DNA of 9,732 nt, taken from contig CP059264.1 in NCBI GenBank assembly GCA_013693915.1, positions 3,451,479 through 3,461,210 of the forward strand, in the 5' to 3' direction. The stretch comes from Dechloromonas sp. GTDB lineage: Bacteria > Pseudomonadota > Gammaproteobacteria > Burkholderiales > Rhodocyclaceae. The notes beneath the pieces were generated by a model. The model saw only the letters and a program-made list of their open reading frames with translations, was not told where the DNA came from and did no database searches. The translations under genes and the position numbers were made by a program. This document shows, one piece after another, positions 6,461 to 9,732 of the stretch. Position 1 is the first letter of the stretch. Each line of letters starts with the position of its first letter.

Positions 6461-7893
6461 GCCTGCCCTCCGGCCCCGGCCATCTTGCCGCGCATGTAGC
6501 AGGTCTCCTCGGGCAGGGCGTCGTAGTCACCGCGCAGCAAGGCCTCGCAATCGCTCAGCGTTGCGGTCAAGGGAACAGACGCGCCGGCGATGCCGGTATG
6601 TTCGGCGACGACGAAGAACGGCTGGCTGAGGTAGCGCTCCAGCCGCCGGGCACGATGCACGGTGCGCCGGTCGGATTCGGAGAGCGCTTCCAGCCCAAGC
6701 ATGGCGATGATGTCTTCGAGTTCCCGGTAGCGGGCCAGCGATTCACGGACCGCCTGGGCGACGCGGTAGTGGCGGTCGCCGATGATGCTGCGGTCCATGG
6801 CGCTGCTGCTCGAGAGCAGCGGGTCGACCGCGGGGTAGATGCCCTTGGCCGCCTGACTGCGCGACAGGATCACCATGGTATCGAGGTGGGCCAGTATCGC
6901 CCCGACCGCCGGATCGGTCATGTCGTCTGCCGGGACATAGACGGCTTCGACTGCCGTGACGTTGCCGGTCCGGGTCGAGAGGATGCGCTCCTGCAACTCG
7001 GCCACCTCGGAGAGCAGGGTCGGTTGATAGCCGACCGTCGCCGGCATGCGGCCGAGCAGGCCCGACAACTCGCTGCCGGCCTGAACGAAGCGGAAGGCGT
7101 TATCCATCAGGAACAAAACCTCCCTGGCCACGGTGTCGCGCAGGTATTCCGCATAGGTGAGCGCCGCCAGCCCGATGCGGAAACGGACTCCGGGCGACTC
7201 GTCCATCTGGCCGAAGACCATCAGCGTTCGCGGCATCACCCCGGCGGCCCGCATGTCGTGCCAGAGTTCATGGCCCTCGCGGATGCGTTCGCCGACACCG
7301 GCAAAGACCGAGACGCCCTGATGCAGCCGGACGATGGCGTTCATGAATTCCATGATGAGTACCGTCTTGCCCACCCCGGCCCCGCCGAACAGCCCGGTCT
7401 TGCCGCCGCGCACGAAGGGGCAAAGAAGGTCGATGACCTTGATGCCCGTCAGCAGGATGTCGCCGGCGCCCGCCGCTTCCGACAGGGGGACCGGTGGCGC
7501 GACGATCGGGCGGAAGGATTCGGCAACCAGGGGCAGGCCGCCATCGAGCGGCTGCCCGAACATGTCGAGCAGGCGACCCAGGCAGTCTGGCGTCACCGGA
7601 ATCTGCAAGCCGTCGCCACTGTCGAACACCGGCATCTGCCGCCTGAGGCCGCTGGTCCGGTGCAACGCGATGGCGCGCACCCGCTGCTCGTCGAGATGGC
7701 GATGCACCTCGAAGGTATAGCGCTCGCCGTTGAGGCAGACGTAGATGGCGCGATGCAGCGGCGGCAGGCGGGAGCACAGGATGTCGATCACCGGCCCCTG
7801 GACCTCGAGGATCACGCCGAGCGCCGGCCCCTCCGCCACCGGGCAGCTGAAAACCACGTCCTGATGACAGGCAGGTGTTGCGCAGTCATTCAT
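6457..7893 (-). CDS. atpD: N-type ATPase beta subunit (catalytic)
   Basis: The 478-residue catalytic subunit of the head synthesises or hydrolyses ATP. The Walker A loop is GGAGVGKT (170-177) with Lys176. The catalytic Glu202 lies in [14 protein letters not shown]. The Walker B strand is [13 protein letters not shown] with Asp264, followed by [23 protein letters not shown] (271-293). [11 protein letters not shown] (353-363) and [12 protein letters not shown] (423-434) shape the adenine pocket. The lever motif DELSEED of ordinary beta subunits is weakened to EALSESD (402-408). Nine cysteines are present (4, 9, 17, 40, 53, 104, 158, 449, 465), three of them in the first 17 residues; E. coli beta has one. 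All catalytic residues are intact. The ATG directly follows the TAG of the thioredoxin-CcdA gene, with a G-rich stretch upstream, so the ATPase is likely on the same message as the redox genes. Confidence 0.96.
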
Positions 7894-9207
7894 CTATTGC
7901 CCCCGCGTCAGATGCCACGCGATCCCGGTGGCGGCCAGTGCCCCCACGAGCAGCCCGGCCGTCACCCGCAGGTCGTTCAGCCACGCCGGAAAGAAGGTCA
8001 GCAGCAGGCCCAGTTGGAGCATCATTACACCGGACATCAGCTTGAGCAAGCGCCCTTCGCGCTCGCTCAGCTTGTGCGTCGAGAGCGCGCCGACGAAGGC
8101 CAGCACGATCAGCAACAGGGGCACGATGTAAATGGCATTATAGAGCGCCAGCCAGGCATAGCGGGCGCCGGGCGATGCCACGGACAACGTCAGGATTCGC
8201 GTATAGACCATGGGAAACCCGGCGGTGCACAGCAGTTCGTAGAAATTGGCGACGATGGCCAGAAACACGGTGGCACCGAGCATCGCAGCCGAATTCCCGG
8301 ACTGAAGGATGACCCGGGCTCGGCGGTAGATGCCGGGCTTGGCCGCATGGGGTATCGACAGCGTGATGCCTTTTTCGAACGCGAAGAAATCCTTGATGTT
8401 GATCACGCCGACGAACATCGCCAGGAGCCCCGCCGCCAGCGTGATCCCGCCAAGCGCACCGAGGAGTTGAAAGACGTTGAGCCAGGCGGCCATGAAGGCG
8501 AAGTACATCAGCCCGGAAGTCGCGACGAAAATTCCGCCCACCAGCAACATGCGGCGCCGATCCTTCTGGCGGGCGAGCAGGCTCAACAGGAACAGCAGGA
8601 CGAAGAAGGCACAGGGGTTGAACGCATCGAGCCCGGCAAGGATGACGGTGAACAACGGCAGCGACAGCTCCGCCGAATCGAGCGTACCGAAGAATGGCAA
8701 CGTGATCGGCACCGCTCCGGTCGGCACAGGTTCATTCCCGCCCGCACGGCAGGCGTCGAGGGCCTCAAGCAATGCCGCCCCCGTCGTGGCGGCGTCCTGC
8801 CAGCCGACTTCCATCCGGCCACAGAAAATCACCGTCGGCACGCCTTCGATGCGCCCGCCGACGGCCCCCGCCATCTCCTCGAAGCGCCGCACATTATCGC
8901 GATTGCGCGAAACTTCCAGCGCATGCAGCTTTACCCAGGGGCGTTCGACGGGAATCGCCTCGATGAAGGGGTGGGCTTCGAGGCAATGTGGGCAGGTCTC
9001 CGACCAGAAGAAGTAAAGATGGACGCGCGCTTCGCCGTCACTGCCCCGCTCGATCCAGCCCGGCGTTGCGGCCAATCCCGCACCGCTCGCCATCAAGGCG
9101 GCGGCCAGCAGCAACAACACCGTCACGATCCAGCGCGACGCCTGACCGAAACCGGCCGGGATCGCGAGCAAATTTGAACGGCAAATTGGCGATGCGTGCT
9201 GATTCAT
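7894..9207 (-). CDS. Thioredoxin / CcdA-DsbD-like membrane fusion protein
   Basis: The 437-residue protein begins with a signal-anchor or cleavable signal (hydrophobic 26-46, GAGLAA). A periplasmic thioredoxin-like domain follows (about 58-155) with the active site Cys72-Pro-His-Cys75 in YFFWSETCPHCLEAHPF and the cis-Pro loop GVPTVIFCG (Pro124). From about 180 to the end there are six or more membrane helices of CcdA/DsbD type. LDAFNPCAFF holds Cys199 and LLCTAGFP holds Cys327, the likely pair that moves thiol electrons across the membrane. It thus resembles a compact DsbD: cytoplasmic thioredoxin to membrane pair to periplasmic CPHC. The start is ATG 9207, with AAGG about 11 bases upstream, 2 bases after the cytochrome stop; a TTG at 9213 overlapping that stop is possible. 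It abuts atpD. The final substrate is unknown. Confidence 0.85.
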   Translation of the reverse strand: MNQHASPICRSNLLAIPAGFGQASRWIVTVLLLLAAALMASGAGLAATPGWIERGSDGEARVHLYFFWSETCPHCLEAHPFIEAIPVERPWVKLHALEVSRNRDNVRRFEEMAGAVGGRIEGVPTVIFCGRMEVGWQDAATTGAALLEALDACRAGGNEPVPTGAVPITLPFFGTLDSAELSLPLFTVILAGLDAFNPCAFFVLLFLLSLLARQKDRRRMLLVGGIFVATSGLMYFAFMAAWLNVFQLLGALGGITLAAGLLAMFVGVINIKDFFAFEKGITLSIPHAAKPGIYRRARVILQSGNSAAMLGATVFLAIVANFYELLCTAGFPMVYTRILTLSVASPGARYAWLALYNAIYIVPLLLIVLAFVGALSTHKLSEREGRLLKLMSGVMMLQLGLLLTFFPAWLNDLRVTAGLLVGALAATGIAWHLTRGQ

Positions 9208-9209
9208 GT

Positions 9210-9578
9210 TCAAGGGGCCTTGCCGAGCGTACCTATGCGGTATTTTTCCAGCATTTCATCAGCATACGGCGAATGCGGACGCCCTTTCATCTTGGTTTCG
9301 TAGGCCTCGGTCGCCTCCTTGCCGCACCACGGCAGGACGATATCCGGTCGGGACGGATGTTCCGGCAGGTAGGCGCTGACGTCATGGACCGCACCGCGGA
9401 TCGCCATCCAGCAATCTTCCGGGGTGGCGTGCCCCGCCAGCTCGGCCGGGGTGATGATCTTCTCCCCGGGCGCGGCTGTGCCTTGCTTCTCGGGCATCCG
9501 GAAGACCGAAATCATGCCCAGTCCGCTGACGACAATCCAGAAAGCAAGGGTCGAACAAATGAAGAGCGTGCGCGTCAT
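9210..9578 (-). CDS. Membrane-anchored cytochrome b5/b558-like protein
   Basis: The 122-residue protein has an N-terminal membrane segment (about 4-26, MTRTLFICSTLAFWIVVSGL) that probably anchors it with the domain outside the cytoplasm. The cytochrome b5-like heme domain (about 41-118) starts at ITPAELAGHATPEDCWMAI. The two heme ligands are expected to be His74 (YLPEHPSRP, in place of the classical HPGG) and His102 (GRPHSPYADEMLEKYRIGTL). Cys56 (DCWMAI) and Cys85 (PWCGKEAT) match, from memory, the pattern of the soluble cytochrome b558 of Ectothiorhodospira shaposhnikovii. The role is presumably one-electron transfer. The ATG at 9578 overlaps the stop of the upstream flavin oxidoreductase (ATGA), suggesting that reductase as a functional neighbour. 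Membrane side is inferred from charge only. Confidence 0.87.
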   Translation of the reverse strand: MTRTLFICSTLAFWIVVSGLGMISVFRMPEKQGTAAPGEKIITPAELAGHATPEDCWMAIRGAVHDVSAYLPEHPSRPDIVLPWCGKEATEAYETKMKGRPHSPYADEMLEKYRIGTLGKAP

Positions 9579-9732
9579 CGGAAATCGAACCGCTCGGAAT
9601 GGATCTGCGAAGACGGCACGCCACGCGATTGCAGGAGGCGTCCGGCGGCATCGAGCAAGCCCGGCGGTCCGCAGAGATAGCATTCATGACCGGTCAACTC
9701 GTGGGCATCCGGGAGGATCGCCGCCAGATCGG
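9575..9732 (-). CDS. FNR-type NAD(P)H oxidoreductase, C-terminal end (5' part outside window)
   Basis: Only the last 51 residues are in the window, ending at TGA 9575-9577. The stretch ECYLCGPPGLLDAAGRLLQS is the CGPP-type nicotinamide-binding motif of the ferredoxin-NADP reductase superfamily, followed by a helix and the closing GVPSSQIHSERFDF, typical of these enzymes' C-terminus (NADH-dependent reductases of oxygenases, NqrF-like proteins, cytochrome b5 reductases). It would use FAD to pass electrons from NAD(P)H to one-electron carriers. Whether a 2Fe-2S domain is present at the N-terminus cannot be seen. The stop overlaps the start of the b5-like cytochrome, a possible electron acceptor, though the two may lie on opposite sides of the membrane. 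The family call is firm; the subtype is open. Confidence 0.85.
   Translation of the reverse strand, partial: DLAAILPDAHELTGHECYLCGPPGLLDAAGRLLQSRGVPSSQIHSERFDFR

Follow-up and report, generated by a model that had tools for sequence, protein, structure and literature searches.

The stretch of Dechloromonas sp. DNA considered here (hereafter the window; 9,732 nucleotides, G000:C1:3451479-3461210, in a 3.96 Mb genome that forms a single contig and is 93% complete) encodes a rotary ATPase which resembles the N-type enzymes but lacks atpR. It is proposed that this ATPase may be an ATP-driven proton pump, powering proton-coupled arsenic efflux from within a cluster of arsenic and redox genes, a reading to which we give about an even chance. 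Gene content, order, strand and spacing were observed directly, as was the recurrence of such ATPases beside ars genes and heavy-metal RND pumps. Judging from its genes, what unites the cluster is the efflux of arsenic and metals. An earlier note on the window, which had described a redox module joined to an N-type ATPase operon, missed the arsenic theme because acr3 and arsC lie outside the window.

With the flanks added, the cluster runs on one strand (the minus strand for every feature of the window) in the order arsC, acr3, a gene for a small protein (Small), a ferric-reductase-like gene (FerRed), a cytochrome b5-like gene (Cytb5), a thioredoxin-membrane gene, atpDCQBEFAG, an ArsP permease gene and an ArsE-like gene. 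The first three of these and most of FerRed lie upstream, beyond the window, which holds the middle and the end of the cluster. The FerRed stop and the Cytb5 start overlap as ATGA (9578/9575), the Cytb5 stop is placed 2 bases ahead of the thioredoxin-membrane ATG at 9207, and the TAG of the latter gene (7894-7896) directly abuts the atpD ATG at 7893. All three junctions had been pointed out in the earlier note and are exact in the sequence. The widest gap in the 5' half of the cluster, 234 bases, separates acr3 from Small, and the 3' limit is a convergent frame, thioesterase-like by eye. By consensus matching, which also yields chance matches, a single promoter-like site was seen ahead of arsC and none was found inside the cluster, from arsC to its end. 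Along 6000..9732, the cluster strand carried 0 promoter-like matches and 1 terminator-like match, the mean for shuffled sequence on both strands being 2.5. Terminator-like matches, which are equally open to chance, lie within the thioredoxin-membrane gene and between arsP and the ArsE-like gene. The layout lends good support to one transcription unit from arsC to the ArsE-like gene, longer than first thought. The earlier claim that redox and ATPase genes form one unit agrees with this layout, and extension upstream, as had been advised, would place the start of the unit at arsC, behind the promoter-like site.

The arsenic genes were recognized by profile. ACR3 scores 444.4 bits on TIGR00832 against a curated cut-off of 282.8, and the ArsE-like product (ArsE/MTH895-family, thioredoxin-like; 316..546, likely start GTG at 546) scores 94.4 bits on TIGR00412 against 62. 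The ArsP-family permease (603..1622) passes PF03773, with 249.2 versus 32.3 bits, while the NCBIfam SaoE and SO_0444 sub-family cut-offs were not reached. The arsC-like product is of the low-molecular-weight phosphatase type by PF01451, and here too the NCBIfam ArsC cut-offs were not reached. No arsR was found in L007 or L008 by tblastn with two ArsR queries, a search that a divergent ArsR could escape. The Small protein is secreted-looking, has 106 residues (L007:3326-3643, minus strand) and is without a Pfam or NCBIfam match. The cluster is thus like the known ars operons (acr3, arsC, arsP, arsE) in its ACR3 and ArsE above curated cut-offs, its ArsP_1 domain and its phosphatase-type, ArsC-like product; it differs from them in holding a whole rotary ATPase set together with a ferric-reductase/cytochrome b5/thioredoxin set, and in having no arsR found at its start.

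N-type ATPases, which were reportedly described by Dibrova et al. in 2010, are presumed to be ATP-hydrolysing ion pumps. Their gene order, beta-epsilon-Q-(R)-a-c-b-alpha-gamma, is present in the window, R excepted: atpD (beta, 6457..7893), atpC (epsilon, by profile match, 6056..6460), atpQ (ATPase_gene1 family, by profile match, 5787..6068), atpB (subunit a, 5089..5787), atpE (subunit c, 4826..5092), atpF (4068..4817), atpA (alpha, 2579..4114, start codon uncertain) and atpG (gamma, 1733..2595). No atpR was found at the locus, since the GTG start of atpB overlaps the atpQ stop and leaves no room for it; for comparison, the AtpR of a Ca. Contendobacter locus (L011) was detected by PF12966. The delta subunit is fused to b, atpF carrying an OSCP domain (PF00213) besides PF00430. 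The beta subunit reaches 568.2 bits on TIGR03305 (alternate F1F0 beta), under the cut-off of 752. In subunit c, helix 2 reads ESLAIY instead of the sodium motif ESTxxY, and the helix-1 site is Met versus Glu in the N-type c of L011 (three sequences, compared by eye). Because Met replaces Glu in helix 1 and ESTxxY is absent, the window ATPase is predicted to be proton-coupled. The available text of PMC6688271 quotes ESTxxY as the sodium motif of N-ATPase c subunits, and that of PMC5376962 describes a true N-ATPase with a proton-specific c17 ring.

By these sequence features, the enzyme is an R-less, N-type-like ATPase, and plain "N-type", as it was first called, requires this qualifier. The likeness to the N-type ATPases, so far as the accessible parts of PMC4154653 and PMC11738941 describe them, lies in atpD-atpC at the head, atpQ, the b-delta fusion and an ordinary F-type set alongside, a second, F-type beta being encoded at C1:352873-354111. 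The missing atpR, the sub-threshold beta, the absent sodium motif and the position inside an arsenic cluster set it apart. Another parallel is the R-less N-ATPase-like operon atpDCQBEF:HAG of Methylacidiphilum, for which the available text of PMC6688271 speculates on pH homeostasis. It has the same order up to atpF and likewise lacks atpR and ESTxxY, but in that text an arsCR-acr3 cluster is described apart and not tied to the ATPase.

At E <= 1e-155, relatives of the window beta were detected in 23 of the 300 order genomes, 31 of the 395 family genomes and 11 of the 321 class genomes, the genome's own copy being included in each count. In a maximum-likelihood tree of 51 beta sequences, the window falls into a 10-row clade with support 100/100, and five of the ten rows have arsenic genes in reach. 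Locus L220 reads arsR-arsC-arsA-arsC-like-acr3-arsH-DUF-ATPase-TauE-CDF-FmdE-arsP-ArsE-like, where DUF is a small conserved protein and arsA and arsH were assigned by eye. The order in L218 is nearly the same, starting at a cut arsC. In L219, arsR-arsC-arsA-acr3 precedes the ATPase (arsA again by eye), and L172 shows CDF-FmdE-DUF-Small-FerRed-Cytb5-ATPase-arsP, with an ArsE-like gene further on in L254.

The neighbourhoods of 63 other R-less loci were then compared (23 from the order, 29 further ones from the family, 10 from the class and a Legionella fallonii plasmid, the window excluded), 15 of them on stretches shorter than 15 kb. An HME-RND, ACR3, ArsP or CDF gene was found near the ATPase in 14 of the 63, on the ATPase strand in 14 of 14 cases, and the same test gave 0 of 20 in control stretches taken at hand-picked positions from 16 of the same genomes. 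L256 was left out, as it is the same plasmid as L130. This count superseded one of 46 loci with stricter thresholds and self-derived queries, in which 12 had such a neighbour, 34 did not, and the controls again gave 0 of 20. Outside the clade, a CusA/CzcA-type pump gene precedes atpD by 78 bases in L228 (its product scoring 1261.6 versus 701.45 bits on TIGR00914), by 189 bases in L230 and by 794 bases in L227. Such pumps also occur near L130, L133, L257, L280 and L283, and an ArsP permease stands beside L296. In each of the best two plasmid matches, Legionella fallonii plasmid II and Sulfuricella pSCD, the ATPase lies near RND metal-efflux genes; on the Legionella plasmid (L257 14001-25989), efflux genes for TolC, an adaptor and CusA/CzcA come immediately after the R-less ATPase.

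A Pfam count without chosen families covered 129 same-strand neighbours within 3.5 kb (132 found, 3 omitted) and excluded the window's locus, L257 (low GC, no calls) and the loci fetched later. E1-E2_ATPase appeared five times, SBF, Ferric_reduct and FmdE four times each, and ACR_tran, ArsP_1, Cation_efflux, TauE and HMBD three times each. These families were not among the 25 commonest, of 169, in 129 control genes (132 drawn of 273, 3 omitted). In L121 and L122, the R-less ATPase is followed on its own strand, after ~400 bases, by a P-type ATPase gene (L121:1952-4537 and L122:2160-4814) whose product is proton-pump-like by eye.

The association extends to a second kind of rotary ATPase. In Ca. 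Contendobacter L011, one strand carries atpD-C-Q-R, arsR, arsC, acr3, a TauE-like gene (arsR, arsC and the TauE-like gene assigned by eye) and an ArsP permease gene, and continues with a Thioredoxin_3 ArsE-like gene, a CDF gene, the thioredoxin-membrane gene, V/A-type ATPase genes, atpB, atpE, atpF and the first part of atpA. Here the same ars block is found together with both an N-type and a V/A-type rotary ATPase. In C. odensis (L010), the thioredoxin-membrane gene (two frames in the draft) is followed, after 10 bases, by N-type atpD and atpC. From these two loci together, the same thioredoxin gene therefore meets a different ATPase type in another family. In L011 (1861-21296), the ars block and the V/A-type genes lie inside a true N-ATPase cluster, with atpR on one side and atpB on the other; the cluster also has a sugar-dehydrogenase-like frame between atpE and atpF.

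Several observations weigh against a dedicated role in efflux. No such pump was seen in the stretches of 49 of the 63 R-less loci, and five of the ten clade rows (L217, L221, L222, L233 and L112) have no ACR3, ArsC or ArsP in reach, L112 showing only a CDF, 2.2 kb past atpG. The Fisher test of 14/63 against 0/20 is modest (0.014, one-sided), and loci within a clade are not independent. The figure of 14 is, moreover, biased upward because some of the tblastn reference proteins came from these very loci: L130 and L257, both RND efflux by RefSeq annotation, match their own proteins in the set. Lower-identity RND pumps, uncounted, lie near L223, L224 and L127 (other strand) and also in one control stretch, and some of the five E1-E2 ATPases (those of L121 and L122) would, by eye, be proton pumps and not metal pumps. 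The Acr3 subtype of the cluster was met in 15 further genomes of the order sample (58-86% identity), with the ATPase beside acr3 in 0 of 15. Within the cluster itself, there is the terminator-like match ahead of the ArsE-like gene, and atpG is broken into two overlapping reading frames in this assembly; the break may be an assembly error, as isolated N bases occur in both flanks.

Metal-resistance islands are also known to gather unrelated genes. The ATPase and the redox genes could have come to stand among arsenic genes only through such gathering of mobile operons, each then having a task of its own and the ATPase serving general ion or pH homeostasis. The varied neighbours, the 49 loci with no pump in reach, the 15 genomes in which the acr3 of this subtype has no such ATPase beside it and the plasmid location of two R-less ATPases would all suit this explanation. 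It sits less well, however, with the shared strand of all 14 efflux-associated loci, and with spacing. In the window, L172 and L221, the joint between atpD and the Cytb5 or thioredoxin gene ahead of it ranges from a 4-base overlap to a 2-base gap; in L228, L230 and L219, atpD follows a CusA/CzcA or ACR3 gene at ~60-210 bases. Moreover, the link recurs on separate branches of the tree and, with the other ATPase type, in Ca. Contendobacter. Gathering alone is regarded as possible but doubtful.

RND (CzcA/CusA) and CDF metal pumps use the proton motive force, and the accessible portions of PMC9144182 and PMC13381914 state the same for Acr3 and ArsB. In the efflux-powering role proposed here, the ATPase would hydrolyse ATP and pump protons; ATP would thereby pay for the efflux, and the pumping would offset the proton influx through the exporters. 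The closest known analogue is ArsA-ArsB, in which ATP energy is likewise brought to arsenite efflux. As far as the available text of PMC13381914 goes, ArsA couples directly to the permease, whereas the coupling in the window would be indirect, via the proton gradient.

It can also be argued that arsenate, by futile cycling through the ordinary ATP synthase, drains the proton gradient, and that a second, hydrolysis-biased ATPase restores it, with a benefit that is general and not confined to the exporters. An ordinary F-type set is indeed present in the genome, the arsC-like gene implies arsenate as a substrate, and three Gallionellaceae ATPases lie near a pstS-like gene (by eye). Such an explanation, however, leaves the neighbouring metal pumps of the RND and CDF types, which are unrelated to arsenate, unaccounted for, and we consider it unlikely.

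The redox genes that precede atpD call for a separate account. The part of FerRed in the window (9575..9732) is only the last ~50 residues of a 419-residue protein, the rest of which lies upstream at L007:2054-3313. The whole protein passes the cut-offs for Ferric_reduct (PF01794), FAD_binding_8 (PF08022) and NAD_binding_1 (PF00175), and because of these domains it is taken to be a membrane flavoprotein. What had been labelled a flavin reductase is, in the window, the tail of this ferric-reductase-like membrane protein. Cytb5 (9210..9578), with a hydrophobic N-terminus, passes PF00173 with 65.0 versus 23.7 bits, in keeping with the b5-like cytochrome first described.

The thioredoxin-membrane protein (437 residues, 7894..9207) had been called a thioredoxin-CcdA fusion. 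Its thioredoxin domain (CPHC) is borne out; the CcdA identity of the membrane half is not supported and rests on two invariant cysteines in the membrane domain. PF02683 was matched by none of 22 aligned family members at E <= 1, the window included, and at the scale of the whole genome it matched two other genes and not this one. No convincing Pfam match to the membrane half was obtained in the 22 members, and hhalign against the genome's own DsbD gave no match. An AlphaFold model had a mean pLDDT of 67.6, with a poor membrane part, and by Foldseek the thioredoxin domain alone was matched convincingly. The likeness to the DsbD/CcdA thiol transporters is one of layout, a thioredoxin domain with a membrane domain holding two invariant cysteines, the lack of a PF02683 match being the point of difference. 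Database relatives of the protein number at least 7073 at E <= 1e-10.

Relatives of Cytb5 occur in 21 of 150 family genomes, the own genome included, and FerRed is immediately upstream of Cytb5 in 20 of 20 loci fetched from other genomes. When ~8 kb around the pair was inspected, the ATPase was present in one of these 20 (L172). FerRed-Cytb5 stands directly ahead of atpD in L172 (2-base gap) and L221 (4-base overlap), and L217 retains a Cytb5 remnant before atpD. Co-occurrence of the redox genes with atpD in relatives, as had been suggested, was therefore seen for FerRed-Cytb5 but not for the thioredoxin-membrane gene, which was not found between Cytb5 and atpD in other R-less loci; L221 keeps a short fragment of it ahead of Small, and in L234 a copy lies 6 kb off on the other strand. 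Absence from every relative, which the earlier note had named as grounds for refutation, thus does not apply to two of the three genes. In the 23 order loci, no homologue of Cytb5 or of the thioredoxin-membrane protein was found, and FerRed had one weak match (25%, L133). FerRed matches of 28-29% lie at 2-4 kb in L226, L229 and L293. In the plasmid collection, Cytb5 had no match and the thioredoxin-membrane protein one weak match. Of 408 confirmed thioredoxin-membrane loci, 80 were kept for a neighbourhood survey: ACR3, ArsP or ArsC was near in 34 of the 80 (20 of the 41 with stretches of at least 20 kb), and 75 of the 80 had no rotary-ATPase gene in reach.

We infer that the redox genes would be partners of the arsenic cluster rather than regulators of the ATPase. 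FerRed with Cytb5, and the thioredoxin-membrane protein, are predicted to form two routes for reducing power across the membrane or to its outer face. The recipients of the electrons may be membrane or periplasmic arsenic-handling partners, e.g., disulfides, bound As(III) or oxidised arsenicals.

In the earlier note, it was suggested that thiol or NAD(P)H status, acting through the three redox genes, might control the assembly or activity of the ATPase. FerRed-Cytb5 adjoins atpD on its upstream side in L172 and L221 and is one gene removed from it in the window; this position would be in line with such control, as would two clade-specific beta cysteines, C17 and C53. These cysteines, however, are kept in L218, L219, L220 and L222, in whose stretches FerRed, Cytb5 and the thioredoxin-membrane gene were not found. 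The pair is, in addition, without such an ATPase in 19 of the 20 loci from other genomes, and the thioredoxin gene without any rotary ATPase in the 75 loci given above. The beta subunit had also been called unusually cysteine-rich, a weak claim, as its 9 Cys compare with 4-10 in the R-less relatives (some of whose frames may start too early) and five of the nine recur in 34 or more of the 38 relatives from outside the clade. Because the presence of the additional cysteines does not follow that of the redox genes, the idea that thiols control the beta subunit was set aside, and control of the ATPase by redox status in general is held to be very improbable.

If the efflux-powering role proved true, enzymes of this class would have a new task, and cells would have a way of spending ATP on metal export that needs no dedicated ABC, P-type or ArsA ATPase. 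In the available extracts of the literature, salt tolerance and acid or pH homeostasis are proposed as the cellular role of second N-type or N-like rotary ATPases. Narrow searches of open-licence literature, covering abstract openings, with subscription journals outside their reach, found no N-type ATPase tied to arsenic or metal efflux. Same-strand linkage with arsenic and metal exporters, if recurrent, would give these enzymes a testable role and could partly explain their patchy occurrence. In a wider and more tentative form, to which we give slightly less than an even chance, accessory rotary ATPases may more than once have become dedicated power sources for the export of toxic metals. They would be ATP-driven proton pumps, co-transcribed with the proton-driven Acr3, ArsP, Czc or Cus exporters that they serve and accompanied by a membrane electron-export module that would hold the exported metalloid, or its thiol partners, in the reduced state.

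Some minor observations concern the same gene families. In the Gallionellaceae loci L013, L015 and L028, pstS-like, thioredoxin-membrane and CDF-like genes face an R-less ATPase on the other strand; these first looked like the same link and were dropped, as the ATPase strand is opposite to that of the thioredoxin gene. The secreted-looking family of the Small type recurs by FerRed-Cytb5 and by the thioredoxin-membrane gene (L007; L112:5605-5916 and 7118-7423). A 130-residue protein is encoded just before atpD in three of L218, L220, L222 and L172, and ~2 kb before it in the fourth; the copy at L218:10839-11231 has no Pfam or NCBIfam match. In L234, from a genome of the same genus, an SBF/ACR3-like transporter gene (10828-11802, minus strand; 79.7 bits on TIGR00832, below the cut-off) lies ~350 bases before atpD, and a chromate-transporter-like frame (by eye) is found downstream.

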